The position numbers and the translations under genes are program-made. Below the pieces are notes generated by a model. That model was not told the DNA's origin, made no database searches, and worked only from the letters and a program-made list of their open reading frames with translations. 64,000 nt of DNA from Straminergon stramineum (Eukaryota; Streptophyta; Bryopsida; Hypnales; Calliergonaceae), in contig OY987265.1 in the NCBI GenBank assembly GCA_963920665.1, positions 16,497,001-16,561,000 on the forward strand. The letters run 5' to 3'. Positions 16,481 to 45,084 of this stretch are shown here, piece by piece. Position 1 is the stretch's first letter. The number at the start of each line of letters is the position of its first letter.

Positions 16481-16489
16481 GAACTTCAC

Positions 16490-17499: not shown

Positions 17500-19060
17500 T
17501 TTAATTCTATCATTCCCTTTCCTATCTTGGGGGGCTTCATTCCTAAAACTCTTCCATCCCACCTCAATGCCATTAATTTTTTTGTAAATCATTCAATTTT
17601 CTTTTTGGCTTTATGAACTCTTAAAAACTTCCATTTCAACTACTTGCCCTCTGTTTTTTGTTCCACCATTTTTTTCTTCATTAATTCCTAAAACCCTTTA
17701 ATTTGAACTCCATGCCAATATTTATTCATCCAACTCATTTCCTTTCCTATTTTTTTTGCTTTCCATTTTTTTTCCTTCATTTATTCCTAAAACTCTTTTA
17801 TTCCAACTTTAAGCAAGATTTTTTTTGTTCCATCATTCCCTTTCCTATTTTTTTTACTCATTAGCAAAATTCTTCCATCCCAACTCAATAATAAAAGTTT
17901 TTTATGGTACCAAATTGGAGTCTTTCCATTCACTTCCCATTTCTCATATGAAAAAATAGGTAATAAAAAATAAGATTTGTTTGATATCTCTTTCACATTT
18001 GTTTGCTTTTATTAACATTTAAAATGCACTTACATTCCAATGGATTGACATTTCTTTCCCTTCCCTAGTTTTCGTCATTGATTGGAAATGAATCCTACTC
18101 CAATTCAATGACATTTAATTTCATTCCCTAAATGTTTTTATCATTAAATCCTATTCCAATTCAATGACATTACATTTCTTCACCTAATTTTTTTTTATCA
18201 TTGAATATTTGAATCCTATTTCAACTCAATGACATTTCATTTCCTTACCTAAATTTTATCCCCATTGAATCCTAATCCAATTCAATGACATTTCATTTTT
18301 TTCACTAACGTTTTTATTTATTAAATCCTATTCTAACTCAAAGACATTTTACCTCCTTCCCTAATTTAAAGTTTTCAATTTTCTTTTATGGTCATTTTTT
18401 GGTAACCATTTTATTGGGTATGTACGGATGTACCTATTTCCATCCCAATTTAATGATTCCCATTTACCTTTCCCAATTTTTGGTGCTTCGGATAACAATA
18501 CACTTCCATGCCATTTTTTGGGTAGGATTCATTCCCTTTCTTACTTTTTTTGCTTGATTAGCAAAATTGTTTCATCCCAAGTTATACAAGAACTAAATGG
18601 CATTATTATTCTCTTCCTAAATTTTTTCCAACTCAATGCCATTTTTTTTCATTGATCATTCCCTTCCTAATTTTTTTGTGCTTGATTAGCAAATTGCTCC
18701 ATGTCAACCCAAGTGCATTTAATTTTTGTATTCCCTAAACCCATTCTAATTTTTTGGGGCTTGATTTGCAAGATCATTCTATCCCAACTCAATGCCATTT
18801 ATTTTTTGGTATATCATTCTTTCCCTATTTTTTGCTTTTCTCCATCATTCCTTTGCCTATTTCAGTATTTTGTAATTAAATATGTACCTATTACCATCCC
18901 ATTTTTTTTTGGGTTCCATTATTCCTTATTTTCTTTGCATTAACGACATTTCAAAAGCGTTTTTTTCCTATTAAATGACATTTGTGGTCCTTCCCTAATT
19001 TTATTCATTGATTGGAAATTGGGAATGAATTTTACTCCATTTCAATGACATTTCATTTCA
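17500..19060. repeat. Degenerate ~65-80-bp tandem repeats, two subfamilies
   Basis: At 17,500-17,900 and 18,430-18,860 the units match the CCATCCCAACTCAATGCCATT family of 13,960-15,120. Between them (about 18,030-18,380) and near 19,020-19,060 is a sister form, built on AATCCTATTCCAATTCAATG followed by ACATTTCATTTCCTTCCCTA, repeating roughly every 65 bp. Confidence 0.75.
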
Positions 19061-19286: not shown

Positions 19287-21050
19287 CTAGTCAATGTTCA
19301 TTGGACTACTTGCACTACCACTTGGTCCAGCCTCATTGTCATGTGTCCCGGCGTGGACTGGAAGGTCTTCATCTGAGCCCAAACGAAGTCTACGAACTAC
19401 GGATCGAGTTCTCCTTGCTGGTCCGTCTTCCTCTAATATAGCCCTCAATATTTGTGATTGTTTGAGGCTTTGAAGACATTGGAGAGTTCCCGGGCTATGC
19501 TGTTCCAACAAATAGTCCATTCCTTCATTTTGAAAGGTTTCTCGCCACTCTGACTCCGATAGTTGTGCAAGTTCAATAGGGTCTGGCATGCCAATGTCTT
19601 CCCCCATACGCATCCCATTGTCGTCAGTAATGCGAACTCCATCAACGCCCCATAACCATCCACGAGGATGAGGTCCAAATTGGAAGTATTGTCCAGCTTC
19701 GTTCCAATGCCCATTGAAGCACTGGAGGAAGAAATTCCGTCTTCCTTGGCTGAAGTTGTCCTTTAGTGGAACCAAGTGGTGGCACACCTCCACAATTTGA
19801 GCCGGATCTCTTTCCCAACCCCATTCGGTACAAAGGTTTTGTTTATTCAAGGAATGGATGTTCAATTTCCAGCTCCATACCAAGTCTGTTCCCCACTTTT
19901 GAGAATGATCAGGGGCATTTTCAGCATTGAATTCCCAATGCGGTGGCATGTAGGGAACTAATCCAAACAACTCATACAAGCGCTCATGGAAAGGAGCCTT
20001 GCACAATGAACAGCGTCAGCGAATAATCATCAAGCTAATTAGGCAGAATGGGTGGTACAAATGTTCGCACGTGCCTAGGTGCATTCCACCTTCCAGGCCA
20101 AATGGATTAAGTCAAATGGGACATGTAGTTCCATCATGCACGAAAGTTGAAGGATTTGGCCATAGTAGTAATGGATTGCCTTGATGGTCGACGGCAGAGC
20201 CAACTGCATTCTTGAAATTCCAAGCATGTTTGGACCAATCGATGGTTTTTGGTCCACCACCAATGTTGATGGTCGCCATTTCATCCATGTTGAAAAGATC
20301 ATCCACTAGGGCCCACGATGTCAAACCAAAAACCCTCTCTTGATTGTGTGCGCCGTAATTGTTGTCAATTTTTTTGAATTCTTCCACCATTTGCCTAGTT
20401 CTGTCAACACTAAAGATGCATGCCATCTTCCATTGGTAATACTACTCCATCAATGCATGCAATTGATTTTTTAATCTCAAATTGTTTGCAAGCGCGTCCG
20501 TTAGTTGGGTGCTTTGGTCAACTGGTATTGCTGCAACTACATTCGTGGGTAATTCTCCGAAGGACAATGAATCTTCTTGAGTACCCATTGTTGCACCAAC
20601 TTCTGCATGTTCCAATGGAATTTGGGAATTATTTGAAGGCCCTTGCGCTTCCCCTCGTGGATCCTGACCAACATTGGCCAATGTTGTTGCCTCAAGAGTG
20701 TGTCGAAGTACCTCCATCTCAAGTTGTTGTTGATTGATGATGTTGTCCTTCTCTTTGATTTCTTCCCTCAATTTGTTAACATCATCATACAAAGAATGCA
20801 ATTCCGCATTCTTGTCATTCACTTCGGTCAAGAAACTCTGAATTCGGTTTGCAACAGTTGTAACATTGACAATTCCTACTACTGGTTCGTCAGTAGGTGG
20901 CACTTGTTCCTCCACAACATTTTTTGGTAAAACCTCATTAGTTGCACACGCAGCCCTCCTCTTTTTAGCACGTTGTTGTTGTGTTCTATGGCCAACGACG
21001 CTAGAGTGTGAGCGGGGAGCAACGAGCGTTGAGCGTTGAGCGATGAGCAA
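19287..21050 (-). pseudogene. Element-associated coiled-coil/RING-like protein, three in-frame stops
   Basis: One minus-strand frame of 588 codons runs from ATG 21050 to 19287. It is broken by TAG 20444-20442, TGA 20114-20112 and a TGA near 20,027. The N-terminal third is basic, then has a coiled coil rich in charged heptads (LYDDVNKLREEIKEKDNI). A short Cys/His cluster straddles the third stop: CEHLYHPFC, then RCSLCKAPFHERLYELF. It resembles the second half of a RING finger (C-x-H-x4-C, then C-x2-C). The tail is acidic. The function is not known to me. Its neighbour upstream on the same strand is a transposase-like gene, so it may be a second gene of the same element (inference). Confidence 0.6.
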
Positions 21051-21899: not shown

Positions 21900-24800
21900 C
21901 TATAGACTGCTACTTGCAAGTAATAGCTTCACTTCATCAAAGCTCAGACTTGGGGCATGTATATACTTTTCGTCTTCTAAATTTGCCTTGCAAAGAAACC
22001 TAAAGACATAATACAAATGCTTGCAATTCACCCATGATTTCCGACTTCCAAGTGCAGTTGTACACATGGTGATGAAGTCTTCGCAAGTACAAGCAGGAAA
22101 GTCTGAAATAGTGATATGATAGACCTTATGGATGGGAAATATACCAGACTTTAGAGTTATCACTCTACCATAGCCAGGGTATGGAATCACCACTACGGAT
22201 TCAACAACGGCTTTCAAGTTCCTTGCTGTCTCCCATTTGTTGCGGTGGTCAACAGTGGGTGCGTTAGGATTACGCCGGATGGTCCTCCCCAATCGCTTCG
22301 TAGGATGCATACCACCATCCGATGGGTGTAGATCACTATCATATTGCTTCGGGTGAATTAAGGCCACACCTTTCACTGTACTCTCTTCATTAAAGAGGTG
22401 GAGTGGGAGACCATCCACCTCTTTAGTTTGCAACTGGAACCCTGCTTCCTCTAGAGAAAGTATCTCTGATTTAGTGAGATGTGTCCCAAATGCAATAGGC
22501 CAAATACTTGGAAGAGGAGACCAGTCGTGAACCCACTTCACCTTAGAGCCTCCTGCGCAGCGCAGGAGGTCGTCTGCGCAAAACCAAAAATCAAAGTTGA
22601 TGATGGCCTTCATTCCATACTCTATCATACGGCCATTGTAGGTAGGTGCTGCCGTTCCACTCTTTTTTACCTTGTTTATCTTAGCACCGCATTTCTTCTT
22701 CATCCCGACTTGAACTCCATGACAAGTCTTCCCTTCCTTCTTGCACCTAGCAATGTGCCATAGAGAAGGGTTACAATCTGTTTCAATTATTTTGGTAGCG
22801 TGAGGACATACTATGCTCGGTTCTCCTTCGTTTGTTGACTTTGGCATCGATGTGCCTGCTTCAATGCGTGCTCTAGTTGAACGAGTCTGAACTCTAGGCA
22901 CAGAAAAGTTCATAGTGTCGTGGCGATGAGAGTCTTCGTTTGATCCAGGTGGCAAATCCAATTTGCGCTTTGCGGAGCCAAATACTTCTTCACCTTCCAA
23001 GTGGGGAACCCTTGTCGTCAGTAGGTCAGCTCCCGGTAGTTTTGCAACGGCCTCCGCAAACTTTGCTGGATTTTTTGTGCGTCTTGCAGCTCGAAGGCGA
23101 AGTTCGTCTAAGTGGGGACCGGTGCCAGATGCATACCCTTGGAGGTATGCCCTATAATTAGTCGATTATTGAATAGCCCACATCATGTCATCCGTGGTAG
23201 CGACATACAAACAAGTTCCTCTCTTCCCAGACATTTGCAACCACTTATTGTGAACTGTCTCCGCCAAGTTGTATGACGACATTTCAGCTAGCTCCTCCAA
23301 GTTCAGTTTCGATGCAAATCAAAACAATTTCAAGTGATGAGCAGATGAGGTAAGGGTTCAGTGGTTTTGAAATTCTTCTGTCAAAATTTAAAAAAGAATT
23401 ATATTCAACTAAAATTAGAGCAACTTCTAAAGATGTGAAGGAAATTGAATGAATATAAACCACATTCATTTTGACATGGGTAGAATTTCTCCATAGACGT
23501 AAAAACTAAGCATTCAAAAATGGCAATTTGAAATCAAATAGGCATGTCACTTACCAATTCTAGGAATCCACCCCATTGTCGATAGCGAAAGTGCCAAAAA
23601 CCAAGCCAATCATCTAGTTGCCGGAGAGACTCCTCTGATGCAACCCTTGAAGACAACCACCAACCTTTGATTCCCAGGTATCTTTCTTCCGCTTCCGCCA
23701 TTGAATTTGCATCCTTGTATTGTTTACAAAGCCGCTTATGAGTATCTTGGAACTCTGGTCGAATGAGCTTCTCTGTGTGTCTGTTTAGCGACGTCGTCCA
23801 ATGAAGTAGACAAGAGCGTTCTCGATCTTGCATTGGCTCTTGCTTGTTACCACTTCCATAGACCACACGAACAGCATGCCAATTGGCCATGGCGTTGTCG
23901 GCCATGAAACCTTTGAAATTTGGAGAGGAAATTCCGTGGCGCACCATGACAATATTGAGGGATCTCCACATTTGTTCTTGTGACTGAGCATCCTCGCTCA
24001 TCATATCACAAATGCAAATAGTTTGAACTCGACAAAACTCGGGGTTGTAGACGTGGGCAGCCATCGATGTCCATCCCTTCACCCTCTTCACATGATCAAA
24101 CATGCACCAAGAGTTCTGCAAATCACCAGCAAGTTGCATTCGCTTCACCAAATCCACCCCACTTCCTGGACCTTCATCAGACATCTTGAAAAGGTAAACC
24201 TTATCCTTACCTTGACCTAGAAACACGCTATCTTGAATAAAGGAATATGTACTTCTCATTTTCAATGATATAATGTTATCAATGGGTCCCGCACTTGTAC
24301 TGTGCCGAAAACTAGAGATGGTATTTCGAATACTTGGTGAACTAAGTATTCGAAACTTCTCCATGACAGCTTCTAGAGCCTCCCCACGAAGGGGCTTCGA
24401 AGCGCTTTGGAGTCCATCCTCACAAAATAATTCAGATGCAAGGAACTCTTTCCCAACTGCAAGACCAATGGCCGAATTTGTGGCAAACAGAGTTTTAGAG
24501 ACCTGTTGACTAATTAGAGATGTTGTCTGCTCAACAGAGTCACGACAAATGCCCCTACCTACAGGATGTTGATGATGACCAATATGGATACAAGCTCTCG
24601 GAAAACCATTAGAGTTTAAGACCCTATACATGCGACAAGGGCACAAAGACTTGCAAGAAGGGGACGCTTTACAAATCCGACATACAAGATTGGACTTTGA
24701 AGGAGGGTGGTTCCCTATAGCAAATATAACAAGTGATGACCCCTCCCACTCTGTCTCATTTGGACTTCCACCTCACCGAACCCTAGGACAATCTAAATTC

Positions 24801-25837
24801 TCACAAACTAGATGGCCAACACAAAATGAATAGCGGAACTTCAGACCGAAGTCATTAGCGATGTTTGTAGTGTGAGTATGGGTCCAATTGTGGCCATCAA
24901 ATCTTCGGTCCATGCCCTCTAGTTGTCGACCTATAGACAAAGAAGATGTTGACCTCGACAAACCAATGGAAGAGGATGTTGGAGGTGAAATAGGAGACAA
25001 CTCAAAAAGCATGTCTCCATTGAATGATTGAGGAAGATGACGCACAGATTCACAATGAAGAGTATCCAAGTTCAAAAACTTCAACTCATTCCGTGCTCGT
25101 GGTCGACTTTGCATATCCCTAAGGCACTCAAGGACACTTTGGAACTGCGATGCACTATGGGGACCTAGAAGGGGCAATGTGCTACCTTGAGCACTTTGGT
25201 TCATCACCAAATTACTATCATTGTCCATCTCAAGTATAGGAGACAATTTTGTTGTTGCTTCACTAACAAAAATAGCATCATCATCTAAAGACTCGGCAAG
25301 ATCAATGGGGCTATGATCCGATGGCTCTACTTTGATACAAGTTCCCTAAGACATTTGCACAATAGAAGTTGCAGAACTAGGCGTAAGAATATCTGTTGAC
25401 ATCGCCCTACTACCAATTGGAGTACCAAAGGTATGGTACTTGCCAGGGGTGAGTCTCCAAACATCTCCTTCATCATTCTTGAACTTTAGTTGCATGACAG
25501 TTGATACAATTTCTAGTCCTTCGGAATCGAATAGCTCCTGCTCTACCCACATAGATGTCAATTCTAGATTGAACCTCACACTAAGAATTGAAGCAGATAC
25601 CCATGCCATACCATCATCGCCACAAGGAAATAAAATTGGAACACTAGACCCTTCACCACGAACCACTGCCATGCCTATTCTTGGATTAGCATACAAACTC
25701 CAAAAGTTGTGCTTGAACCATTGTACAATGGTTTTGAGGTTTAGGCCAAAGTTATAAGACGCTAAGTTAAATGGTGTGAATACTTGGTAGATTCAGTATC
25801 AATATTTGGGTGGTTTGAACTTGATCTTCCAAGATTT
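21900..25837 (-). pseudogene. DDE-type element transposase with C-terminal SWIM zinc finger, three in-frame stops
   Basis: The minus-strand frame stays open from just below a TGA at about 25,840 to 23,534, apart from TAG 25348-25346 and TGA 24775-24773. A clear splice donor (GAATTG|GTAAGT) ends that exon at 23,555. The downstream exon begins near 23,300 (EELAEMSSYNLAETVHNKW) and ends at 21,900, with TAA 23168-23166. The core shows a Cys-rich start (LVCRICKASPSCKSLCPC), then GFMADNAMANWHAVRVVYG and SCLLHWTTSLNRH, as expected of a DDE transposase. Near the end is a SWIM finger (CTCEDF, 17 residues on NCKH). I take it as a MULE/KDZ-like transposase of seed-free plants; the exact superfamily is uncertain. 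No initiator ATG was found, so a 5' exon may be missing. Confidence 0.7.
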
Positions 25838-25840: not shown

Positions 25841-27790
25841 CTTCATGATTTTTAACGCCACCAACAATTTTGTAATTAGATATTGCGAACGTTAGCATTT
25901 ATTTAACCAAATGGTGTCGCATTTAGAGAATATAGCATGTCAGAAGCCACTAAAAGTAGTCCTTCTACAATATGGGTTTGATAATTTCAAATCCAAGAGT
26001 TTATGAGAGTTGGTTCAGCTACAATCAATTGTTTAAAATGACCGTTCATTGCTTATTGTTTGAATGTGTTTTTGTCTTCATTTTGCTTCATTCCTTAGAT
26101 GAGAATACATTCATCAGATTTGGAAGATGCCATATATTGGAGAATTTCTAGAGTTGCCTAGGAAGAACTTCATTTAGTTTTCTTATAGTGAGTTTGGGTG
26201 CAGGGATGCCAGAGGGTTCCCAGAGAAAGAGACGTAAGGCTAGTTTGCTTTATTCTAGCAAAAAACAGTTACAGAAAGCAAAGATGGTTAGACGCTTGCA
26301 TAGAGCTAGTGGAACTGAGATAAGTAGCATTGTTCGGACCTTGTCCTTTGAGGAGGATGGAGTTGAAGTTGGAGATTTTCAATCTAGAGAGAGTTCGGCA
26401 CAAAATTCTGATGGAACTAACTCTATCAAGCTTTAGAGCGTGGAGGAGAATGCTATGTCGTTGAGAAGTGCAATTTGCGTAAGTTCATCCCTCACTTGCT
26501 TCCACTAGAGTGAAGGACAAATAGTTTGTCCAAAGTAATTACCTGTCTACTTCAATGGATAACATCTATTTGTATCTAAAGAGTGCAACAAATATTTTTC
26601 TGGTATAGATAGTTTTGTGCCCACTGGTTTAGTACTACACACATGTTAAGGTCTAATGCTTTCTAAGATACAAAAACCTATAAAAACATGTATAATGTCT
26701 ATTACTCCTGGAAATTATGTTAATGAATATGATAAGGTCATTGATTCCTATTTCGATAACTTTGAAATAATAGGGTTGCATTGATTTGGATATAAAAGAA
26801 TAAGGAATGTGAATCAATTATTGCAAAGGTTTCAAATTTAATTCTCATTTGTAGGATATTGTGCACTTGTACAGTATGCATATTACCCCTTTTAAAGATT
26901 AATTATAAAAAATAGAAATGAATTTTATAAATAATTATAGTATTTAAATGTCTTATTTTTCCAAACCTTTTTATTATGTTATAACATATTTATTACAATA
27001 AATTATTTTTATTTATTTAAATATAATTTTTAAGTTTTAAAAGAGTAATGAATAATAAAATAAAAAAATGTTATTGCTAAAATAATTATTCAGTTCTAGT
27101 GGAATTACAATAATAGCTCATTTTCATTTATTTAAAATTGAGCATCATCATTTGCTAGAAATAATTGGTACATTTGTAAGATCTAGATCACAATTTGTGT
27201 CAACCAAGCAAATTCTTGATACCTGAAGTTCAACATTGTTGAATAAATGGAGTTTAGAGTATATCATGTTTATTCCATTGTACATCTTATGAAATAGTCC
27301 ACATTGTAGAAATTGGAGTCTCTTTGAGCAGTAGCCTCTTAAAATTCCGCCCAAAACTATAGAATTAGATTTCTCAAAGAAATGAAAGCTCCACCAATGC
27401 ATGAAATAAACCAAGAAGTTTATCACTATCAAGCCCAATTATTAGATAGATTTCTATATTGGATTTCTAAAATATCCTATATTACTAATAAAATGTCTTA
27501 AAGTCTTACTAATATCAATAATAAAAACAATAACAAATCACTCTTTATCCTAGAAAATAAAATTTCAATTCCTCCCTCCATTTCACCTTTGTCATCATTT
27601 GGATACAAATTAAAAAGGTAAACATAAAGCCAACAAGGCAAATGAGACATTGTGCATGAATAAGATGATCGAGCTAATCAATTAGATCGCCTTAAAACCC
27701 TCGTTTAAGGCTAGTGGTGCATATTTTGAGAGAGGTATGAATATCACTGGAATTGTCCTACTTACAGGGGTCTAGAAATTTTTTGATATT
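25841..27790. other. Non-coding stretch, very AT-rich at 26,850-27,560
   Basis: A small ORF at 26,188-26,436 (+) is basic (GSQRKRRKASLLYSSKKQ) but resembles nothing I know. From 26,850 to 27,560 the sequence is strongly AT-rich without clear repeats. It separates the SWIM transposase from the ParB-methyltransferase gene. Confidence 0.35.
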
Positions 27791-27804: not shown

Positions 27805-30800
27805 ATGGATAATCAAGCTCGCGCATCGATAGGAGCGCAGGAGCACGAGGAGGAGAGACGAGGAGACCAAGCAGTTGCGCCTCAGTTTGAGCGAACAGCC
27901 GCTGCAATTACAGTAATCCCAAACACCGATTGTTTGGATTTTGTAGGGTTTGTGGTGGACTTAAAAGATTTATGTAGTGCGTGACTCTACAATGTTTTGC
28001 AGGGCTGATTTGCAGGGGTAATTTAGGTTTGTGATGCCCTAAATCTAGTTAATGGAGGGTTGAGAGGAATCGACTGATAGCCTGTCGACTATCGGTCCCC
28101 TCGAGCCTCCTCGGAACCCGAGTAGCCTGAGGTAGTCTCTAAAGAGCTCGTGGTTCTTCCCGAGGAGCAGTCTGGTCACTCGAGGTCCCAATCAGGGTTC
28201 ACAGGTTCAGAGATCCTACTTAATGCTCGCAGCTCTGACCTCCTCGGCATCGAGGAACTTAGGAACGGAATAGTTTGTGTGCTATTGTGCCTCAGTTCGA
28301 GCGAACAGCCGCTGCAATTAGAGTAATCCCAAACACCGATTGCTTGCATTTTCTAGGGTTTGTGGTGGACTTAGAAGATTCATGTATTGCGTGACTTGAG
28401 TCACTAGACAATGTTTCGCAGGGCTGATTTGCAGCCAGGGATAATTTAGAGTTGCGATGCTCTAAATCTAGTTAATCTAGGGTTGCGAAGAATTGAATAG
28501 CCGGTCGACTGTCGGTCCCCTCAAACCTCCTCGGAACCCGAGTAGCCTGAGGCAGTCTCCGAAGAGTTGGTGGTTCTTCCCAAGGAGCAGTCTGGTCACT
28601 CGAGGTCCCAATCAAGGTTCACAGGTTCAGAGATCTTGCTTCATGCTCGTAGCTCTGGGCTCCTTGGCATCGAGGAACTCAGGAATGCAATTGTTTGTGT
28701 GCGATTGCGGACTTGATATGTTGTTTAAATTGTAGAGTTCATAAAGTTCTGAAGCTTCAGAGGTGCCACAGGGGATCCGAGGAATAGAGTTAGAGAGTCG
28801 ACCCAAGTTTGTAGTTTTCGGTAGTCATGATTTCTCATTATTTTAAATTATTTTAGGACTGCTGTTTCTCAATTGTTTCATACAAAAAGCACAGGGATTG
28901 CATAGGGGCGATGAATACGGCCAAGGGCCCGATGTCATCTGTATATTTGTTCTAGCAATTACCAGGCTATAGTATTCAAAATTTCTTTCTTACGGGTATC
29001 CTAAACCCATAATACTAGCTAGAATTCAAGATTACGGACTTGGGGTAATATTAATCACAACAGATTGGCTTGATATACACGTATGGTTTCCATGGTAATT
29101 GCATTGGAAATGCACATGGATTGCTACATAGTCCAGACGTTCTTCAAAGCACTGATTTGCATGTCAGTTCTTGAACTTGCAATAAGTTTGATATTCTGAC
29201 CTACAGATAGTCCAAATTCACCGTAGCAACTGAAGCTTCTTAAGAAAAAACTTATTTTCAACTCCTTCTGTCTGACGAACTTGCGTGCTAGAAACGAAGG
29301 ACCTTGTCTTCATTACCTCGAAGCTTGTCTTTCTCACCGAGAACCTGTCTTCGTCAACATTTTTAGACATGCCTGAGTTATAATTTTCATGAGTCGAGCT
29401 TCACAGTTCTCTCAAGATGTATCTTACAGGAAGTAGATGAGATGATAGAATCATGTCAAGCGAGTGACTTTTAGTGTGCATGATTTAGTAAATTGTAGCC
29501 TCAGTTGGAAAATTGGAAGCTCTGTTGTTGTCCCTATGCCTAAATAATTTATTTGATTTGATGAGTGAAGGTTCACCGTATAGACAGACGATTCCCCTCA
29601 TGAGATTTATCAAACATATAAAGTTTTGCAATCTATATATGATAATGTGATAATGTAGGATTTGGTGACTTCATATGTAGATTAATCAATGGACTCACGT
29701 GCCTAACCAATTGACTGAGCCACAAGTTTCGAGTTGGTTTATTTTCTAAAGTTCTACATGAATTGCAACCAGGATGACTGTTTAATTCTTAGCTGGAATG
29801 CATGAGGTTCTAGCAGGAATGTGCTTTCATAGATATTTTTTACATTCAATTTCTCCTTTGATGAATTCCACACCTACTATTTAACTAGCCTTTAGCAAGC
29901 CCTGGGATTCCATGCTGTCGAACAACATGAAATCCTTATTCATACAGGACTGTGTGAATCACTCACAACTTTGCCTGTGGAAACTCATTTCGATAAAATC
30001 GTGGTGCATTCAATAGTTATATGAGCATTTAGTATATCGGTCTAGGTTCAATAGACCACTTTTGAAATGCAATCTTGTTTTACTTATTTCATTATAAATT
30101 TGACAATTGGAGGCTCAAAATATGGTACCAAGTTTAATTTAAGGGATTGTCCATTTCCTATTTTGAAGAATGGTGAAAGATTTTATTTGGTCCGATTAAC
30201 CATACTAATAAGAATGTTTTGTGCTAATGTGACATTGTAGTATGTTTCTATAGTTTGCAATGTTTGGTCACAATATAAGGTTTAGGGATGTCTATTGTTG
30301 TTTTGAACGCCTAATAAGCATTGTAATGAGAGGGGGATTATGAGATTCTGAAGTCTAGATCTCAAGCTTCAAGCAATTCTCCAAAGAATGAATTGTGATT
30401 TTTTGATGAGGAGCTATGGAAATAGTACTAAGTAGTCTTTGGGTATATGAGATTCCTAAATCTTGAAGCACCTCTAATATAGAGTTCTTGATTGTGAAGG
30501 CTTCTTAGTTTTGTTGAAGCCTTGAAGTTTTTGCTTTGTAAATGGTATAACCCTAGTGTCTTCTCTTGAGTGGTCTTTAATGTGCTTAAGAGTTGTAGAA
30601 AATTAACAATCCCTAGTAGAGGTAGCTGATTTTTTTGTTGTTTGTAATTTAGGGCCTAGCATTGTGTGGTTCAACAAAGGAGATATTGATGGAGGATATC
30701 ATTGTTCAAGTTTGAAGCTCTTGAACTATTTCAAAGCAGACATGGTTTCTTTAAGGTCTATGCCATGTACGTAGTCGTGCAAATCATTTTTAAATTGTTG

Positions 30801-33800
30801 ACAACTTGTGTACTATGAGTCATTTACAGACTAGCACAATTTCAAATTGTAGTGTAGGCAAATTGACTAAACACAAATTGATGTCACAAAATTGATCCTA
30901 GACCTTTCTTGTCAAATGTTCTATAGTCTTATGTTGTAAAGATTTGTGGACTTCACAAATTAGCTCACGCTACAAATAAGTAGGAATGTTGACGGTTCAT
31001 AGAAATAAACGTTAGGGAAGATCAAATTGTATGTCTAGATTGACTACAATACAATGGAGGTACATTGATTCCTCAAAGTTGCCAACCATTAGTCCTATTT
31101 ACACCTTGGCCAAGAATATTTTGGCCTCATCATGTTTCACATCTTATCATATGTTGGATTGAAAAGGGGAATGTTAATTGCTCCTCGGAACCCAATCAGG
31201 GTCTAAGGGAGCCTAGGAGGTCCCACAGAGCATTCATCAAGAGATGTCCACATACATTCAAATTCGGGATATTTATATTAGAACATTGAATGGAATTCAA
31301 TCTACATTTCTTTAGAGCAAATGCAAGAGAGTTGTTTTTGTGTTTAAAATAGTAATATTGTTGAAGTTATGTCTATTCCATGTCCAAATTTGTTTATCGT
31401 TTATGTCCCTCGATCCTGAGGAGCTTTACTTGGATTTGGAGAATGCATCTGTGTCTCCCACATAGAACCTCAGAGTAGGATTTTATAATGTGCATGGCTA
31501 CCCTAAATCCCAAGCAATGTTTCCATAGAATTGTCATGGGACGAGGACTGTCTAGGATTTAGGTGGCTAAATCCCCTCCTCAGGACTGTTTTGCTATTTC
31601 AGAATTATCACATAGTTTTATTTGAAGGTGCTAATTTTTTTCATTTAAGTACACAAAGGTCCCTAAAGCTCTTCTTGGGTTCCAAGGAGCTTATTTTATT
31701 GTGCAATTGGGTCTAATATTTCCATTTTCTTTGCATTGGGTGACCTCATTGTATAAATTGGATGATGTTGTGATGCAGATCCTAACATTCTTAATAAAAC
31801 TAGCCCATTTTAGATGTAAATAACACTTGTATTATAATTGGATTCAGGAAATAGGTGCTGATGTGGGTAAGGTCTTCGGTCAGCTGGATCTTGGTGTTGC
31901 AAAGGGTGTTTCAACTATAACTGACAATGTGGCTCATAGTTTGGTAAGTTTAATAGTTTCCACTTGCATTTTGATCACTAGGTTTCACAAAATGTCTAAA
32001 TCTCTAGTGTGCTGACATAGAATTCTATAAAATTTGAACAATGTTTTGGGTTCTCCTCATCCAATTATAAATCAGACTTAAGATTCCTAAATAATCTTAA
32101 TAAGATTTATAAGATATAACATGTGCTATAGCATTGAATGTGATTCATTTTTGACAAACGATTCCAAAACGCATATATCAGATGCCTAGTTATTTGGTGA
32201 CTTATAGCCTTCTTGAACCCTAGGAGTTGTATTATGCTTCCTAGCTACCTTGGTTGCATGATTACAATCCTTTAAAAGCATATAAAATACTTTTAGGATT
32301 GCATAGTTAGGTTATTCTCAGCCCACCTCTATTCCGAGAAGGACAACCAGGACTTCCAAATAGTTGCAGTGGATGTTCCCTTAGTAGACTTACATAGGTC
32401 TCGAAGTTTGCATTTGGTATTCGGATTCGAGGACCTTCTACACATTTCCTCTAGAGGTGTAAATGGATTTCAAAATAGATATTTTATGTGTTTCAACTCT
32501 AAAAATTACATGCCCAAATCAAGGTACCTTTAATTGACCTTGAATCCGAGGAGGTTCAACAAGATGTGGAGCATGCTCCCACCTTTCCCAAATAGGATTT
32601 CAGATTAGAAATTAGTATTGAGGTGGAGAGACAAAATCCCAATTTTGGGTATTCCGTAACAAAATTCCAAATACAACTTCCAATGACATTTGATATGGGG
32701 TGAGGATTGACCATTGTACATTCCCTCCTCGGACTCGAGCTGCTTGTTCCGCATCTTCAAAAAACTTTAATTTCATGCGCTCATTTTCCACATGTGAGGA
32801 GTTAGAGATTACTCAAGTCGTTCTTGGGTTCCGAGGAGCTTAATTTCTCGAGCAATTGGGACTTGTATGTCTATTTTCTTTGTTTTTGTTGTCTTCAATG
32901 CTTAATTTTAGTGATATTTGGATGGTGAGCAACAAATGTTTAAAGAAACATGACAATCTTAAATTTAAGTGGACCTTCTTGGGTTTCGAGGAGGCTATGT
33001 GAGGAATTTATGCTTCATTCTAACTTTTGAGTCAATTGGAATATTAAGTGTTGTATGTTTTTGTATTTGGTCCATGCACCTATGTGCCAATAGAACAAAG
33101 AAGATGCTGCAACATCTGGTGGTGAATTGTTGAAAACAACAGAAGGGGATCTCCAAGAAAGTATGATGGATCAGGTAAATTTGAATCTCACTAGAATGCC
33201 TATTTCATCTTCAATTTTGTTTTTATATTTTTATAGGCCCCTTTGGGTTCCGAGGAGGGCATGCCTTGCCCCATTATCACTGCTCCTCGGATCCCAAATA
33301 CCCCCACCGAGGTTCCGAGGAGGCCCCTTTGGGTTCCGAGGAGGGCATGCCTTGCCTCATTATCATTGTTCCTTGGATCTCGAATACCCCCACCGAGGTT
33401 CCGAGGAGGCCCCTTTGGGTTAGGAGGAGGGCATGCCTTGCCCCATTATCGTTGCTCCTCGGATCCCGAATACCCCCACCGAGGTTCTGAGGAGGTCCCT
33501 TTGGGTTCCGAGAAGGGGTTGTCAATGTAGTTTGGATTGTGCTAGATGTTCAAATTAATTTCTTTTTGGACTCATTGGTTAATGGGAATGTTTTTTAAAT
33601 CCAAGTAGCATGCTTATGTATTTGTGGTGTAGTATATTATAATTATTTTGAAATATTATTATTTGAGGTATTGTAGGATCCGCTCGAGATTGATGCCCTC
33701 GTCGTGGCTGAGTTGACATATGATGAGACTGTGAACGCCTTTCGTGCCAAAGAAAAGCTGGACTTCAACACCATTATCCGCAAGTATCGTTTCCAGCCAA

Positions 33801-36800
33801 CGAGGTCTTGTTACTTCAAAATCCCACTCTGTCGAATGATATCATTGCCACTTGTAAGGCCAGTTTTGCAAACTGATGTTGTTCGCCTCGAATCTAAGTT
33901 TGTTCACGGTTATAGAGAGGGTGATCGAGTTATGTATGTGTCACTTCACAATGACAAAGGTATGAGCCCAAAGATCATGGATGAGATATTGGATACTTGG
34001 GATGCTCATTGGGTGGTTGAGAACGAAGCTTTTGAGAAGGAGCTCTAAGGCCATGAGGATCGAGCTGCGCTATCAGGCTTCATGTTTTTTGTGTGGGATG
34101 GCAACCACCGCATGATGGCCTGGACAAACTACATCAACAGGATGAGAGCTCACGACCGTGAATGGCATTTCTGGGTGGATTCTATTATGCTAGAGACTAA
34201 GGGGTCCACGGGAGTATTGATGCATGCAATGAACAACGTCAACATGTAACTCTTCTTCAACTGCGATGATGCAATAGAGAACGTGTTCCTTTGAGGGGTG
34301 TTGCTGTAATTTATATTTTGATTATGAACTTTGCAGGTCCACCGAGAATGCCCATGTGAAGACCAATGTTGTCCACCGTCTTCATAGGATCAACACGTAC
34401 GGGTCTCTCAAGCTTCAAGATTTTAAAGAGTTACTATCAGAAGATGAATATAAAGCTTGCGAGACTCAGACCAAACCATATCCTTGGCACCCTCTTACTT
34501 CAGATATCTTTATACGATTCTTACATCGGGTACGTGTCTTTCAAGTGGTTCCATTTGTTGAAATTGTGAAGTCTTTGTTTATGTCAAATTCTATATTTTT
34601 TTGGAGTGTGTTGTATTCAATGTTTATAGTTTCTTTTTATCTTCTCACTAGCTCCTCAAAATATTTACTTCTATTTTGGTCAATTGAAGGCTGAAAATTG
34701 ATCTATTGCTATAATGGATGTTTGAATGATCTATGTTTTTCTGGTGGTTGTAGAGTTCTATACTATTGTTGCTAAAATTAGCCAATGTGATTTATCATTC
34801 ACATGAACTTGACCTTGTTTTTTAATTTATTGCAGCAAGAGTTAGCTATGGCTGCAGAGGAGGCAGCTAGACTCTATGAAGGACGAACCCTTCCAATAGA
34901 TAGGACATCAAGGGCCCTACAGGAGGCAATGATGGATGCTTCTAATGCAAAGGTGAAATCCCTAAGAACCGAGTTCGATAAACTTAGCGCGGTTGGCAAC
35001 CCCAAGCATGGACCTCGTTGGCTTGAAGAGGTCTGTCTCTTGCTATTTTGTTCTTTAACCATTTGAAGTTCTTATTACATTCCTTTCTTGATTGATTTTT
35101 TGATTTTTTCTTTATTTCTCATCGTCTTCTTCTGTTGTCAGATCATGATTCATTGGAGCAAAAACGAAAGGCCAGATATGACGTTGGATAAGCTACAGAA
35201 TATAGCTGCAAGCATTGTGAAGCCAGTTTACAAGAGCCGATGGTTGGCTTGGTGGAACTCAAGTGAAATGAATCGTGGAGCTCTTCGATTTCCCATTCCA
35301 ATTGCAACGGAGGATAAATTCAAGTCATGGTTACCAAAGGCCACATTTTGGGCTGAGGTTGTTTTTTGACAAAGCCCATTTCATTCAATGATTTCTAGTC
35401 TTATTTACTCAAATTTAATTATTAATGTACTATATTCCTTCCTTTCATGTAATGTTCCTTATTTTCTTTTGACATTTTAGTAGTTATTGTTTAATTTTTC
35501 TAATTTAGTCCTTCACTTTTGACATACAGCTTGAGGAAGCGGCATCAACATGGGTGAATGCGACTTTAGAGTCAGAGCACATAGTTGTTGACTGGAATGC
35601 TGATGATTCTATTGACAAAATTGGTGACTATGTGGAACGCTACAGGATTATACTTTGGGATCATGCTTTCTACTCTTTCTTTGTGAAGAGTGGAAAGTAT
35701 TCTCGTCTCATACCATTCCTAGGGCAAGAGGGATGTGAGCAAGCAATGCAGTGTTGCGTATATAGGTATTTACATTCACTAGTTTGAATAATTTCACATA
35801 CAAATCTTGTGTTCAATTGCAAATATAGTGGTGTAAAGTGATTGTAGATATTTCCTTAATTGTTATATCATTTACTATATTTTGGTGATTTCATTGTGTC
35901 TAATCTATTATTTTGAATTCTATTGTAGATACTTCTATCGGGAACTTGCTGCTAAGGGAGGAATCCAGAAACGAGCAATACCAAAGCTACTTGGAGCTTG
36001 GACTGACAAGAATCTACCTTCTTGTTTTTTCACCACAACTCAAATTCGTGGTTTCTCTCTTTCAGAGCTTATAGATTGCCCGTGGTACATTGAGTGTAGA
36101 AGGACTAACGCACCGGCGGAAGAGCAACATACAAAAGACGAAGCTGCAGCTTCAAAAGTTGTAGTAGAAGATTTGTCTTCCGAGGAGGATGAAGAGGAGG
36201 TTGCTCAACAAACTCCAGATTCTAAGAAGAATTCAAGGCGGGGTCCAAAGAAGCAACTATCTCAGAAGAAAGTCCCTGTAAAGGTCACTAGATCTTCTTC
36301 AACACGTCAAGGTGCTGGATCTTCTGCTCGATCGGAAGTCCCTGCTTTAGGGTCTGCAACTCCTCTTGGCATTTCTACTGTGGCACCGGAGTACTTTGTT
36401 CCTTCTCAGTGGCAAGCAACTAATTCCCTTCGTTCTGAAACTATTGTGGGCAATGTAAGCAAATTAATTCTTCAATACTCTATCCGAGATGCTATTGAGC
36501 ACATGGTGAAAACCCGCACACAATCCCAAGAACAAGTGAAGATTCTGGACTTTGCTAAGAAGGTACTTCCCAATTTGGTATTAAATGTGTTACTAGTATT
36601 TAATCCATGATATTTCTTTTGGTTTCTAACCTTTTCTATTGATATTGTATAGGCGGGCAGAGGACGTTCCCGTACACTTGGAGGTGTGGCCAAGCGTGAA
36701 GCGTGTCTAGACTTGATAATTGGAGACATGCCCGACGGCTTGCCTGTCCCTAATATTTCTCATCCTCCTCTTAGTGTTCCGTATTGGAACACTTATGACG

Positions 36801-38278
36801 ATGAATTTGCAGAGTACATTTTTGAGTTTGCAAGTGGTTCACTTCAGGATGATGGGGCTGTGATGTTTTTTTTGCCGGATAATCCGAAGATTCGGCATAT
36901 GGTTGATAAGGATGCTAAGTTGCATGGGTTCAAAATGCAAACCGATTGGTGGGGCGTTAACGAGCTACGAATGACATCTCACAAAGACATCAATTGCACG
37001 GTAATGATATATTTTGAGTTATTGTAAATGTCTTTAAAGTATGTTTGTTTATATTTTCTTTTTGTTAATACATTTTGTGCATGTTCAGACAAAGCACTTC
37101 TGGATTGTCTTGTATGTTCAAGTTATGTTTAAAGGAACAACAATTCAATCCACTTTTTCTGTGGAGCAAAACCAAGAGCTCTCTGGACTGTCTACAGATA
37201 TATCTGGTAACAATCTGGACACCTATGCCATTTTTCTTTATAAGCCATTTGTATATTTAAAAGTAATTTTGTTCAATTAGGATTGGCATTGGCCATGTGC
37301 AATCCAGTTCAAAATTGGCCCTAATTGTCTAATGTATTATTTGAAGTTCATTTAGTACTAGTCATGTGGAGACCATTTCTAGATTCTATTTTTTTCCGAC
37401 AATGGCTAGACATGTTATAAGTTGATATGCCTTCTTCTAGTTTACAATCTATTTTATATATTATATAGTTCATGTTATGTATTATGGACTCATTTTTTGT
37501 GAAATTGTTTTAGGAGAAGGCTTGTTGTACAATTTCACAACTGCCACCACTCAGTTGATGAAAGATGGATTTCCATGGCGTGGATCACGTGAGAAAGATC
37601 CACTTTTCTTACAAGTTCAAATCGAGAGCTTTTCCAAACCCAATGATGTAGTATTGGATTGCACTGCTTCCACAGGTCTAAACTTCTCTCCACTGCTAGA
37701 TGTCCATTTTATACTTGTATATGATTTATATTTTTATGTATCATTTAGGCCTTACAAAGCATTTTGTTTTGCCACAGGGGCCAGCATCCATGCTTGTCAA
37801 AGGAGTGGCCGACACATCATTGCATTGGAGTCTGATACAGAGATCTTCACGCACATCCTTGCTCCAATGATTGACTCGCCTACGAAGGTTGAACTAGTCC
37901 AACCAAAGCGGAAACGTCAAGTTTCATCAAGCGAAGAGGATCTTGATAGTCCAGTGAAGAAGGTGGCCCAAAATCGCTTGGGTTCGTAAGTCTAACTATA
38001 TTGCACTCTATCAATTTTTTTACAATTGGTAATCTTCATGTGCAGATTATAATCCTACAAGTTTTAATTCTTTTTTTAAATTCATGTTTTGGTGCAGGTT
38101 GGTGAAGTACCTTATTAGCCCTCCTAAGTCTTGGTCTTTGCCTTGTTATGCTGAGTCATTCGCCACAATGAATGTTGAGATGACATCATTTTCCACCTCT
38201 GAAGAAGCTAGCTCTAGTCAACATGTTCTCCAGTTTTTAGATGTAGAAGCTGTGGAGGATAATATGGATAGTGACTAG
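27805..38278 (+). CDS. ParB-like/N4-N6 DNA methyltransferase fusion, 14-exon model with one nonsense codon
   Basis: Exon model: 27805-27912, 31848-31943, 33094-33174, 33677-34245, 34337-34529, 34836-35030, 35142-35357, 35530-35765, 35929-36562, 36653-37000, 37089-37206, 37514-37675, 37778-37985, 38098-38278. Every junction is GT-AG and the phases agree, giving about 1,114 codons. Residues ~120-280 resemble the ParB/sulfiredoxin fold (VWDGNHRMMAW). Acidic and lysine-rich linkers (~590-700) follow. The C-terminal half has the permuted methyltransferase order: motif IV-like LIIGDMPDG (~801), then VQIESFSKPNDVVLDCTASTG (motif I, ~966-986) and HACQRSGRHIIALESD. Nuclear-signal-like PKRKRQ lies near 1030. 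ParB-methylase fusions are known in bacteria and phages. TAA at 34046-34048 (codon ~219) would truncate it. Exons 1-3 are the least certain. Substrate (N4-cytosine or N6-adenine) cannot be told from sequence. Confidence 0.75.
27881..28710. repeat. Tandem duplication, two ~410-420-bp units, starting inside exon 1
   Basis: Unit 1 (about 27,881-28,290) and unit 2 (about 28,291-28,710) share CTCAGTT(T/C)GAGCGAACAGCC, CCCAAACACCGATTG, CTAAATCTAGTTAAT, CCTCCTCGGAACCCGAGTAG and GGTCACTCGAGGTCCCAATC in the same order. The first unit begins within the proposed exon 1, so the exon end and its splice donor (GCAATTACA|GTAATC) are copied in unit 2 as GCAATTAGA|GTAATC. Confidence 0.85.
28711..31847 (+). 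other. Long first intron, remainder
   Basis: No coding frame of note. It contains scattered CTCCTCGGAACC (31,181) and GGTTCCAAGGAGC (about 31,678) strings related to the arrays at 33.2 and 39.9-40.6 kb. The acceptor ATTCAG before 31848 gives a clean 32-codon exon ending in AGTTTG|GTAAGT. Confidence 0.45.
33232..33522. repeat. 86-bp tandem repeat, ~3.4 copies, in intron 3
   Basis: CTTTGGGTTCCGAGGAGG starts a unit at 33,241, 33,327, 33,413 and 33,499, an exact 86-bp spacing. Each full unit also has TGCTCCTCGGATCCC and CACCGAGGTTCCGAGGAGG, so it carries the TTCCGAGGAGG motif in both orientations. The open frames across it are repeat artefacts. Confidence 0.92.
33677..34245 (+). other. Exon 4: ParB/sulfiredoxin-like region
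   Basis: The exon opens with DPLEIDALVVAELTYDETV after the acceptor TTGTAG. It holds a stretch rich in ParB-like features (SLPLVRPVLQTDVVRLE, then GFMFFVWDGNHRMMAW; the Gly-Asn-His-Arg core is the typical ParB-fold signature). The in-frame TAA at 34046-34048 (GAGCTC TAA GGC) is one C-to-T change from CAA. The donor is AACAT|GTAACT; its phase (2) fits the next exon (ATG codon split AT|G). Reading past this donor would add false stops. Confidence 0.7.
36653..37985 (+). other. Exons 10-13: permuted N4/N6 methyltransferase region
   Basis: Exon 10 begins AGRGRSRTLGGVAKREACLD and carries LIIGDMPDG, where a beta-class enzyme has the catalytic (D/S)PP(Y/F/W) tetrad; here it reads DMPD. WNTYDDEFAEYIFEFASGSL and AVMFFLPDN fit the strands after motif IV. 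Exon 11 gives TKHFWIVLYVQ. Exons 12-13 give FPWRGSREKDPLFLQVQIES, then VVLDCTASTG (the AdoMet-binding motif, normally DPFxGxG) and RSGRHIIALESD. The motif I glycine codon is split by the intron at 37,676-37,777. Both catalytic and cofactor motifs depart from bacterial consensus, so activity is uncertain. Confidence 0.65.
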
Positions 38279-39420: not shown

Positions 39421-39892
39421 TTAGAGGTATTATTTCAACACTGTATAAAAACTAAAGACGGACACAATTGCCAACCACAATGATGCATGGTAGTCAATTC
39501 CCGTTTGTCTTTAGCTTGCGTGCCCATCCCACACAAACTACCTTATATTAGTTTATATTAGCAATCCCAATTGTTATGGGATATTACCGTATGTTGGAAA
39601 CCTCTCAAGTCATGCGTAATCAGTTATGTAGAATTTACATGTGCAAGTTATGAATAGAAGAAAGGTAAAGTTTTGAATCATGTTTTCTACCTCAAAAATG
39701 CTTCTGCAGATTGTACAACAATCTTATCCTACAATTTCATTTCATAAAAAAAAATCTTGAATAAATTATTATATTAGTATAGAATATATTGGATTGAAAA
39801 ATATTTATTTAGACCATTTTTTAACTTGTATTGGGTTCTATTTTTAAAATCTAGTCAGGTGTTTCTAAATTGTCATGATTTTGGTATCTCAC

Positions 39893-40650
39893 TAAGAGAC
39901 CCCTCCGAACCGAGGAGGCCTTTAGACTATACTTGTTCTTCAATATCATCTCCCTATGAGCCTCTTCGGAATCCCTAACAGGCTCCTTGGAATCCCTTAG
40001 AGCCTCCTTGGAATCCAAAGAGGCCTTTAGGCCATCTTTGCTCTCTATCATTGTCTTCCTAGGTCCTAGGAGCCTCTTCGGAACCAAGGAGGCTCTTTGG
40101 AATCCCTTGAGATTGTTGTATGTACCCTAATATTTAAACACTCAATCCACCCTAATCATTATATAAGAGTATTTATAAGGACTTAACTAATCCCAACAAA
40201 ATGAATGTAAATTTCAGACTTCACTAATCTAAATCATCCCATTCATGCTTGTAATTGTTGTTTTCTATGAGCCTCCTCGGAACCGAGGAGGCCTTTAGAC
40301 TTTACATGCTCCTCAATATCATCTCCCTATGAGCCTCTTCCAAATCCCTTAGAGCCTCCTCAAAATCCAAGGAGGCCTTTAGGCCATCTTTGCTCTCTAT
40401 CATTGTCTCCCTAGGAGCCTCCTCGGAACCGAGGAGGCTCTTTGGAACTCCTTGAGACTGTTGTATGTACTCTAATATTTAAACCCTCAAACCTACCTAA
40501 TTATTATAAAAGAGTATTTATAAGGACTTAGCCAATCCCTAAAAAATGAATGTAAATTTGGGACTTCACCAATTTAAATCATCCCATTCATGCTTGTAAT
40601 TGTTGTTTCCTATGAGCCTCCTCGGATCCGAAGAGGCCCATAGGACCCCA
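39893..40650. repeat. Palindrome-bearing tandem repeat, ~345-373-bp period
   Basis: Two full units and the start of a third. CGAGGAGGCC falls at 39,911 and 40,284; the related CGAAGAGGCC is at 40,629. Within units the motif AGCCTCCTCGGAACC recurs in several diverged forms. At about 40,271-40,292 and 40,418-40,439 it forms a perfect hairpin with 10-bp arms (GCCTCCTCGG) around an AA centre. Units also share TTGTTGTATGTA(C/T)CCTAATAT and ATCCCATTCATGCTTGTAAT. Confidence 0.88.
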
Positions 40651-40987: not shown

Positions 40988-41635
40988 TCATTGCTCAACG
41001 CTCATTGCTCGCTGCTCATACTTTAGCAACCTTGTTCTATGGCTGACTACAATTGGCACATGAGATCCATCGGAGTTGGTGTCCGTAGATGAGTCCGAAG
41101 TGTCATAGTTTGGTGGTGCGTGAACTTGTGTAGTTTTTTTCGATAGACCACCTTCTGGGTATCTTTTTACCCCCCTTGGAATGAATCCATTCTCTGGGGG
41201 AGGAATTTTCACATTTCCCCCCATTGTCTTCAAAGTTGAACAATCCACTCTCTTGTTCAACTTCACCTCCGCATGGACCCCTCGTGCAATGAAAAGATGC
41301 ACTTCATTGCGTGTGACGTTCGAAACATCATACAACACTTGGAACACCTCAATGCATCGGTTCGTGAACTCATTGTCAAGGCAATGTTTCAAATTTGCCT
41401 TGTGGAAGTGTCTATGAAAGTTATGTCGCTCTTTCGGGAAGACCTTGTCAATGTGGCACCACTCGATGTAATTGGTGCAGTTATCATAAGTCCATGGGTT
41501 AGGCACGTCCTCCCACCCCTTGAATGCAAACTTGGCAGGGTTACGTAGAACATGCAGTCGCTTACGATGTTTGGTTCCTGCTCACAGTCGGGTCTTGTCT
41601 CGTTCCTCCTTGATCATTCTTGGTGGTGTAGCCAT
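40988..41635 (-). pseudogene. Second C-x6-CHIDK motif ORF, one in-frame stop
   Basis: Starts at ATG 41635-41633 (MATPPRMIKEERDKTRL) and ends at 40988, 216 codons. TGA at 41584-41582 lies in a TG-A/CG-A context typical of CpG decay; an in-frame downstream start at 41506 would avoid it. The core has the same pattern as the ORF at 181: C-x6-CHIDK-x-FP-x2-RH-x2-H-x6-NL-x2-C-x8-CIEV. A Ser/Thr/Asp-rich tail follows. A TATAAAG box lies about 130 bp upstream (minus, 41,770-41,764), followed by the GC-rich array shared with the divergent kinase-like gene. The function is unknown; metal binding is inference. Confidence 0.6.
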
Positions 41636-43811: not shown

Positions 43812-44109
43812 TATTTAGTTGTTTCACTTTGTGTAGTTTAGCATATAGTTTAGGCATAGAAGGTAAATCATCCTCATAGAGGACCATGTGTACCTACTTG
43901 GAAATTGCCAAACACCTCAAAATATATATAAAATCGGATGTGTTCTATACTCAAAATCTCATAATATATTAATATTCCATTTCATTGTTCTTTCTCATTG
44001 CATTTTTATGAGTTCTATGAATTGATGATAAAACTTAAATAAAAACAATGAATGCAGTATTTTGGTATAAAAATACATACACTTTATGTTTTCACTATGC
44101 CTATGTTTT

Positions 44110-45000
44110 AGGAGTTCATGAAGCCCCCTAAAAAAAATGATCCAACAAAAAAAAGAATGACATTGAAGTAGATTGGAAGAATTTTAGGAATGAAGAAAAA
44201 AATAAAAGGAAAGGGAATGATGGAACAAAAAAATAAAAATAATGGCTTTGAGTTTAGATGGAAGAACTTTAGAAATAAGCAAAAATAAAATAGGGAAGGG
44301 AAAGATTGAACAAATAAAGCAAAACTATGAGTTCAAATAAAACTGTCTTGCTAATTCATGAACCAAAACAAAATAGAAAATGGAATGTTTCAACAAAGAA
44401 GAAAAGAATAACCATGAGTTGGGATGGGAGAGTTTTAGGAATGAAGCCCCGGAAAAGAGAGAGAATGATCCAACCCCCCCAAAATGGCATAGAGTTGGGA
44501 TGGGAAGGGCTTTGTTCATTAATGGAAAAAAATAGGAAAGGAAATGATGGAACAAATACAAAATGGCTTGGGGTTGGGACGGAACAATTTTGTGAGAGAG
44601 ATAAGTCCACAAAAAGTGAAAAAATAGTGTGTCAAAATGATTTGAACTAACACCCTCCAAAAATTATCATTCAATTCGGATAGAGTTGAGATACCACAAA
44701 AAATAAATGGAATTCACTTGGGATGAAAGAGTTTTGCTAATGAAGCAAAAAATGAAATGAATGGGAATGATCAATGATAAATAAATGGCCTCAGGTAGAG
44801 ATGGAACATTTGTGCTAATCACGGAAAATAAAATAGGAAAAAAAAATCATTCCACTCTACACAAGTGGCATTGAATTAAAATACAAGACTTTTGTTAATG
44901 ATGCCAAAAAAATAGGAAAGGGAATGATTCCACCAAAAAAATAAGGGCAATGACTTGGAATGGAAGTGTGCTTTAAAAATGAATGTCCAAAAGGGGAGAT
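44110..45000. repeat. ~78-bp AT-rich tandem repeat, inverted relative to 14 and 18 kb
   Basis: Units of AATGGCTTTGAGTT(T/G), GGATGGAAGAGTTTTAGGAAT and GAAGCAAAAAATAGGAAAGG, the reverse complement of the 13,960-15,120 family. Landmark GGGATGG(G/A)A(G/A) recurs roughly every 70-80 bp. The same non-coding repeat family therefore occurs three times in 31 kb. Confidence 0.75.
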
Positions 45001-45084
45001 GGAGTGACCCAAGCTTTTGAAAAGCATACCAATTTATTTTAGAGTTGTTCATTATTTTTAAGGAGTTATATAATCTAACATTAA

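Follow-up and report, generated by a model that had tools for sequence, protein, structure and literature searches.

A ParB/methyltransferase-like second gene in a DNA transposon of the moss Straminergon stramineum, and its predicted role as a DNA-binding regulator serving the element

A 64,000-nucleotide stretch of the genome of the moss Straminergon stramineum (assembly GCA_963920665.1, contig OY987265.1, positions 16,497,001 to 16,561,000; hereafter the window, to which all unprefixed positions refer) raises the question of what a many-exon plant gene, designated M, is doing with a ParB-like region apparently joined to a permuted N4/N6 DNA methyltransferase domain. A first-pass annotation of the sequence had offered either a domesticated bacterial or viral methylase or the cargo of a mobile element as possible answers. 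The second guess proved sound: M is the second gene of a DNA transposon rather than a free-standing host plant gene, and serves as the accessory gene of a two-gene element whose window copy has decayed.

The limits of the element were established by comparison with closely related copies on contigs C5 (11.05–11.08 Mb) and C7 (0.36–0.39 Mb). In both comparisons similarity began at position 20993 and stopped at 41034, the matching blocks of the copies on the three contigs being 96.8–97.9% alike and their immediate flanks unlike. Each copy was bordered by a target site duplication, which was 9 bp and perfect in the window, 10 bp and perfect in C5 (GGTCCCTTGG), and 10 bp with one mismatch in C7 (GGTAAGGTTG/GGTGAGGTTG). 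A duplication of 8–11 bp combined with terminal inverted repeats, as found in the window element, characterises Mutator-like elements (MULE/IS256); taken with the modelled transposase, the predicted fold of which was best matched by ISCth4, this length points to an element of the Mutator/IS256 type. The left end was also kept in the copies at C10:12.77 Mb (whole element ~12.9 kb, with a 10-bp flank repeat containing two mismatches) and C7:10.59 Mb, the flanks of which did not match each other. The gene region first delimited at 27805–38278 is real, but the true unit is larger and corresponds to the whole element.

A search of the organism's own assembly (326 Mb, 59 contigs), in which 41 of 2,588 candidates were scored so that the counts are lower bounds, returned at least 120 M exon matches, which outside the window copy were 32–95% identical and could be grouped by hand into at least 24 loci on nine contigs (C2–C5 and C7–C11). 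A divergent transposase was located within 25 kb of M, the ParB/methyltransferase-like gene, at 16 of the 24 listed loci, and among the 24 closest transposases 15 had a divergent M; eight M loci and nine transposases remained partnerless in this test, which took in 27 of the 101 transposase places in the genome. Shared element ends, target duplications and the paired divergent transposase all bear out the notion of mobile-element cargo. The idea of a domesticated host gene, expected to be of low copy number, intact and outside any mobile element, was rejected: the window copy is broken and lies inside an element, M recurs at 24 listed loci spread over nine contigs, a stop or frameshift interrupts 14 of the 17 loci aligned, and 16 of the 24 stand beside a divergent transposase. 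Contamination and the chance chaining of exons were similarly rejected, given the introns, the 24 listed loci and the element ends. At C7:10584552–10618639 two M genes with equal match scores lie in inverse orientation ~14 kb apart around one transposase, an arrangement amounting to a local inverted duplication or palindrome.

When rebuilt from the sequence, M comprised 14 exons within 27805–38278, joined in frame by 13 introns all of which were of the GT-AG type, and the 1,114 codons plus final stop of the spliced product carried the GNHR, DMPD and DCTASTG signatures reported previously. While the 14 exons and approximate length in the first-pass annotation were borne out, its uninterrupted reading was not: codon 219 is an overlooked in-frame TAA, at a position which is open in most related copies. 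The suggested start at 27805 is also doubtful, a different 5' exon (26206–26478) being conserved in four diverged copies. Its reading frame is uninterrupted in the C7 sister copy and at C7:10.59, C7:22.16 and C2:31.80 Mb; it is stopped in the C5 and C10:12.77 Mb copies and in the window, where it carries a second in-frame M stop (26434–26436). The proposed exons 1–3 recur only in two near-identical copies, the upstream DNA of several copies lying outside the comparison. A 426-bp tandem duplication (27875–28707, 86%) doubles part of the proposed exon 1 and its donor. In diverged copies exons 4–14 keep both their order and the placing of their introns, so that this part of the model is more than a product of chance.

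Table 1. Positions and motif definitions for the element and its two genes (window coordinates).
Feature	Position	Strand	Remarks
Whole DNA transposon	20993–41034	.	20,042 bp; ends common to the C5 and C7 copies
Left target site duplication	20984–20992	.	TTCTATGGC; direct repeat at insertion
Right target site duplication	41035–41043	.	TTCTATGGC; direct repeat at insertion
Left terminal inverted repeat	20993–21034	+	imperfect, with TGAGC repeats
Right terminal inverted repeat	40993–41034	-	imperfect
Transposase downstream exon (open reading frame)	21900–23165	-	ends in a CxC...CxH (SWIM-like) pattern, by eye
Transposase exon 1	23537–25672	-	RNase H-like core predicted by model; two in-frame stops in window copy
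Probable true M exon 1	26206–26478	+	MPEGSQRKRRK..., basic, resembling a nuclear localisation signal; phase 0; donor GTAAGTTC
Proposed M exon 1 (doubtful)	27805–27912	+	inside 426-bp tandem duplication
Proposed M exons 2, 3	31848–31943, 33094–33174	+	known from near-identical copies only
86-bp tandem repeats, intron 3	33235–33517	+	with motif A (CTCCTCGGAACC)
M exon 4	33677–34245	+	GNHR (ParB/Srx-like) region; in-frame TAA 34046–34048
M exons 5–8	34337–34529, 34836–35030, 35142–35357, 35530–35765	+	
M exon 9	35929–36562	+	remainder of middle region and acidic/basic linker
M exons 10–13	36653–37985	+	PF01555-type domain; DMPDG in exon 10, DCTASTGAS at exon 12/13 join
M exon 14	38098–38278	+	C terminus and stop
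3' tandem repeat	39892–40638	+	full dyads CCTCCTCGG-AA-CCGAGGAGG at 40272 and 40418
Motif A			CTCCTCGGAACC; full dyad A CCTCCTCGG-AA-CCGAGGAGG
Motif B			CTCCTCGAAATC; dyad B CTCCTCGAAATCGAGGAG
Motif C			CCTCGTTRACGAGG
Motif D			CCTCTCGGCGCCGAGAGG; exact counts use the inner 14 bases

The window element is damaged in both genes, since M and the transposase each hold in-frame stops. Transposase relatives of ~700 aa are open across the region of window exon 1, the start codon of which was picked by eye; a Pfam search with the downstream exon gave no match. Splice-aware alignment of 17 M loci, the window included and several covered in part, identified three (C5:6.10, C7:22.17 and C2:31.81 Mb) free of stops and frameshifts from the GNHR exon onwards and 14 carrying at least one stop. 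A fourth M open over the same interval (C9:12.14 Mb) belongs to a distant element at C9:12.13 Mb in which an open 729-aa transposase reading frame accompanies an M without stop or frameshift, 35.5% identical to that of the window; between lineages the M proteins of these four open loci were 36–65% identical. Private substitutions in three young copies numbered 149, of which 109 were C>T or G>A (24/40, 45/56 and 40/53), an excess as expected of methylated, silenced DNA and suggestive of decay of the 5-methylcytosine kind. The ratio of non-synonymous to synonymous substitution (dN/dS) between the window and C5:6.10 Mb was 0.13 (dN 0.072, dS 0.549), with a value of 0.14, not independent of the first, for the sister copy. 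Such ratios were usable in five of 28 pairs, the other 23 being saturated, and reached 0.42–0.56 in the three youngest pairs; the low values, from a single lineage pair, indicate that M was under purifying selection before the window copy decayed.

The C-terminal part of M matched the Pfam profile PF01555 with a score of 29.1 bits, over the curated cut-off of 26.7, and all seven members tested matched it at E <= 1, the C9 copy (26.5 bits) falling slightly under the cut-off. A PF01555 family search of the whole genome found nothing, probably because the exons split the domain. Around motif I, a profile of the seven methyltransferase regions found DpnA (E = 8e-5) and CcrM (E = 0.004); there the site resembling that for S-adenosylmethionine (SAM) retained DCxAS in all seven members, the following T-G varying in two broken copies, and aligned with the DPFxGSG region of DpnA. 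At the position of motif IV the standard [DNS]PP[YFW] was replaced by D-x-P-[DE]-G in six of the seven aligned members and by DISDG in the other. A search of 5.8 billion proteins with the whole M protein gave no match at E <= 10 among 6,544 candidates; with a profile of its methyltransferase part, 20 homologues were obtained, the single named one being KC19_N032100 of the moss Ceratodon purpureus. The 18 that cover the motif IV site exhibited D-x-P-[DE]-G in 16 cases, with DQPKG and DMLEG in the others, and [DNS]PP[YFW] in none (judged by eye, several being near-duplicates).

Enlarged with five homologues, the profile of the M methyltransferase regions aligned one-to-one with five phage ParB-methylases over 175 columns (94.9% probability, E = 4e-8), falling to 82.6% and E = 1e-5 without the homologues, while two swapped-domain controls each gave 0.1%; the aligned phage DPPY coincides in position with the D-x-P-[DE]-G of M. 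Matches to PHROG methyltransferases back the fold only. Such whole-domain similarity, the PF01555 match and the conserved motif I are what would be expected were M an active N4-cytosine/N6-adenine methyltransferase marking its own element with N4-methylcytosine (4mC) or N6-methyladenine, a role suggested by the authors for the Sola1 protein of Ectocarpus in the consulted portion of PMC12477816. The uniform absence of [DNS]PP[YFW] from the covering homologues makes that unlikely, as does the available part of PMC8885841, according to which replacing SPPY by APPA abolishes the activity of a rotifer, and hence eukaryotic, 4mC enzyme, rendering standard methylase activity by M doubtful. Altered chemistry remains conceivable because D-x-P-[DE]-G is itself conserved. 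With motif IV changed and a motif-I-like site kept, the domain is less likely to act as a standard N4/N6 methylase than to be a pseudo-enzyme or to work by altered chemistry; within its methyltransferase fold, a different but conserved motif would have taken the place of the catalytic one.

A k-mer count showed the elements to be enriched in short non-coding motifs, often palindromic, that differ from lineage to lineage (A–D, Table 1); exact forms of these were present in four, six, two and one of 18 element loci respectively; five loci contained none, and two kinds never occurred together. With up to one mismatch allowed, motif A had 19 sites in the 20-kb window element; no motif occurred at this tolerance in its 44 kb of flank or in two other sets of flanking DNA (8.2 and 5.9 kb). 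None of the 19 overlapped the 6,870 coding bp, and at two mismatches one of 34 overlapped an exon. Because lineage-A copies that use half-sites gave few sites or none under a strict dyad count, a 12-mer matrix was used. Genome-wide, dyad A occurred at five sites, none more than 7 kb from a lineage-A M gene and three of them beside copies whose compared core had no motif, and dyad B at four, all 3.3–3.4 kb 5' of lineage-B M in four of its six loci; reversed control patterns of the two dyads gave no site. The palindromes may be regarded as a parS-like motif, [CT]CTCG-N4-CGAG[GA], with N4 and flanks set by lineage, seeded through the element.

Two comparisons bear on which gene the motifs accompany. 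The element at C5:6.10 Mb, with motif A like the window, has an M 87% and a transposase 84% identical to those of the window, and that at C7:22.16 Mb, with motif B, has an M 64% and a transposase 88% identical. In the cases compared, the lineage motif thus tracks M rather than the transposase. This counts against the proposal that the motifs are promoter or enhancer sites of the transposase or of host factors, unrelated to M: they differ among elements whose transposases are 82–88% identical to the window's and are shared where M is alike. That proposal, which we hold to be improbable, draws on motif C. Its arrays (at least 57 forward and 67 reverse matches genome-wide, against one for the control) adjoin M loci, and stand also ~3–4 kb 5' of at least six transposase loci at which no M was detected, such that motif C could be part of a promoter or be bound by the transposase.

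The explanation rated most likely, which overlaps in part with its rivals and to which we would give an even chance, is that M is a DNA-binding regulator serving the element with an anti-silencing effect; it is placed first because the layout resembles that of the VANDAL elements of Arabidopsis. Working, we infer, on behalf of the transposon, M would bind through its N-terminal part, probably as a dimer, to the motif of its own lineage, which recurs in non-coding parts of the element. The C-terminal domain retains a motif-I-like site for SAM and has D-x-P-[DE]-G at motif IV; distributed over the element, M may keep the chromatin open or shield the element from cytosine methylation. The divergent transposase gene, ~0.5 kb away, would thereby stay expressed, with M acting like the VANC protein of VANDAL elements, to which it is unrelated. 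A more specific version, to which rather less than an even chance is given, pictures self-recognition in which the ParB-like/pseudo-methyltransferase protein with D-x-P-[DE]-G co-evolves with its palindromic parS-like motif as a convergent, unrelated counterpart of VANC.

Several observations weigh against this interpretation. The ParB identity of the N-terminal region is suggested by a signature: all 17 copies compared have GNH, extended to GNHR in 12 of them. The ParB profile PF02195 was found in none of five M members, and sequence searches of Pfam, PHROGs and PDB returned no convincing ParB match, the PHROG hits being weak and of unknown function. Alignment with ParB using hhalign reached 15.6% probability over 15 residues in the GNHR stretch, and the single-sequence fold of exon 4 was uninformative (pLDDT 35). 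Of the ParB–methyltransferase fusion first proposed, the split gene and PF01555-type domain have stood, the ParB part having its signature without profile, structure-sequence or fold support. As to the motifs, three positions separate A from B, with cross-lineage sites at one mismatch (B three, five, seven and one times in four A loci; A zero to five times in six B loci); part of the loci used for counting had already served to choose the motifs, and sites in sister copies, being inherited together, are not independent. Motif C arrays adjoin at least six of nine transposase loci lacking a detected M, and motif C occurs at a minimum of eight further places among the matches listed; the 17 sites of dyad D are spread over 14 loci, just one of which is a known M locus. 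The usable dN/dS values, as noted, share one lineage pair.

A role in transposition itself, M binding internal and terminal DNA in the manner of mudrB to aid synapsis or integration with no part in silencing, would account for its position inside the element opposite the transposase at 16 of the 24 listed loci and for the purifying selection. It is nonetheless considered distinctly improbable, given that most motif sites in the window are in introns or the 3' region, with one near the left end, and that the terminal TGAGC repeats are common to lineages with different motifs. Far less credible still is a passenger, a captured or domesticated host gene carried along by chance as in Pack-MULEs: Mutator elements do tend to pick up host gene fragments (PMC6446971, in part), but introns and divergent layout have been conserved although the M proteins are only 35–64% identical to that of the window.

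Comparison with VANC further defines the predicted regulator. According to the portions available of PMC5735166 and PMC10398659, VANDAL elements share with the present family a Mutator-type setting, an accessory gene less conserved than the transposase and short motifs, different for each family, in tandem repeats of introns and non-coding DNA; VANC binds short motifs multiplied in tandem repeats of introns and upstream regions and removes DNA methylation (PMC5735166). However, VANC contains DUF1985/DUF287 as opposed to ParB-like and methyltransferase parts, and its binding and the loss of methylation have been measured, whereas M is known from sequence. A similarity to DUF1985 was set aside as too weak: this VANC domain was detected in two of seven methyltransferase-region members below the cut-off (best E 0.0086), and one full-length M scored 14.4 of the 35.1 bits needed. 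The present family may represent a second origin of VANC-like anti-silencing.

Transposon-borne ParB-methyltransferases are already known from brown, green and red algae, as set out in the part of PMC12477816 available, which describes the accessory protein of Sola1-1_Ec32 from the brown alga Ectocarpus and cites similar transposon proteins in green (Iyer 2011) and red algae (Petroll 2025), with mere suggestions as to function. M is a candidate member of this class, which it resembles in layout and methyltransferase part and, by signature only, in the ParB part. Compared by description, Sola1-1_Ec32 combines a ~1,100-aa ParB-like and N4/N6 methyltransferase protein with a ~20-kb DNA transposon, on the strand opposite the transposase; it belongs to the Sola1 superfamily, whereas M resides in a Mutator/IS256-type element of a land plant, with D-x-P-[DE]-G and lineage motifs that the consulted portion of the description does not mention. 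The ParB-methylase of Wolbachia phage WOVitA1 (HQ906662, 15672–16886) resembles M in domain order and over the 175 aligned columns, but is a ~400-aa protein with canonical DPPY and no introns, its ParB part being alike only at GNHR/GHLR. Retrotransposons with DIRS adenine methylases or DNMTs (PMC5890265, in part) likewise carry a DNA methyltransferase, although as retroelements with Dam-like or C5 enzymes. A suggested link to the 4mC enzymes of bryophytes found no support: MpDN4MT1 of Marchantia is a bacterial-type amino-methyltransferase in a bryophyte, yet is a host gene with genome-wide 4mC and no extra N- or C-terminal domains (PMC8566409 and PMC8885841, parts available), whereas M extends to ~1,100 aa and has an altered motif IV.

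The words 'methyltransferase' and 'ParB' were absent from a Mutator review (PMC6446971) in a term search, and the open-licence literature searched held no earlier report of ParB-methyltransferases in land-plant transposons. The apparently novel features are the occurrence in a Mutator/IS256-type element of a land plant, D-x-P-[DE]-G at motif IV, and the divergence of the motifs in step with M. The family within one genome provides natural experiments, in which M and motifs changed jointly as transposase and ends stayed more alike, and such pairs of elements make self-recognition directly testable.

Other repeats and reading frames were recorded outside the element. Short repeats ~65–87% alike, direct at 13965–18833 and inverted at 44106–45023, have the appearance of subterminal repeats belonging to a further nested element. 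At 48011–49239 a 72-bp tandem array of ~17 units is open on both strands, one of which would encode leucine-rich repeats. By eye, two sets of reading frames resemble hAT transposases (3194–5672, +; 9969–12962, -), and long frames at 58118–61970 (+) have the look of a CACTA (TnpD-like) transposase; a separate 2.1-kb portion of the C5 stretch matches 57303–59449 with 95.6% identity.

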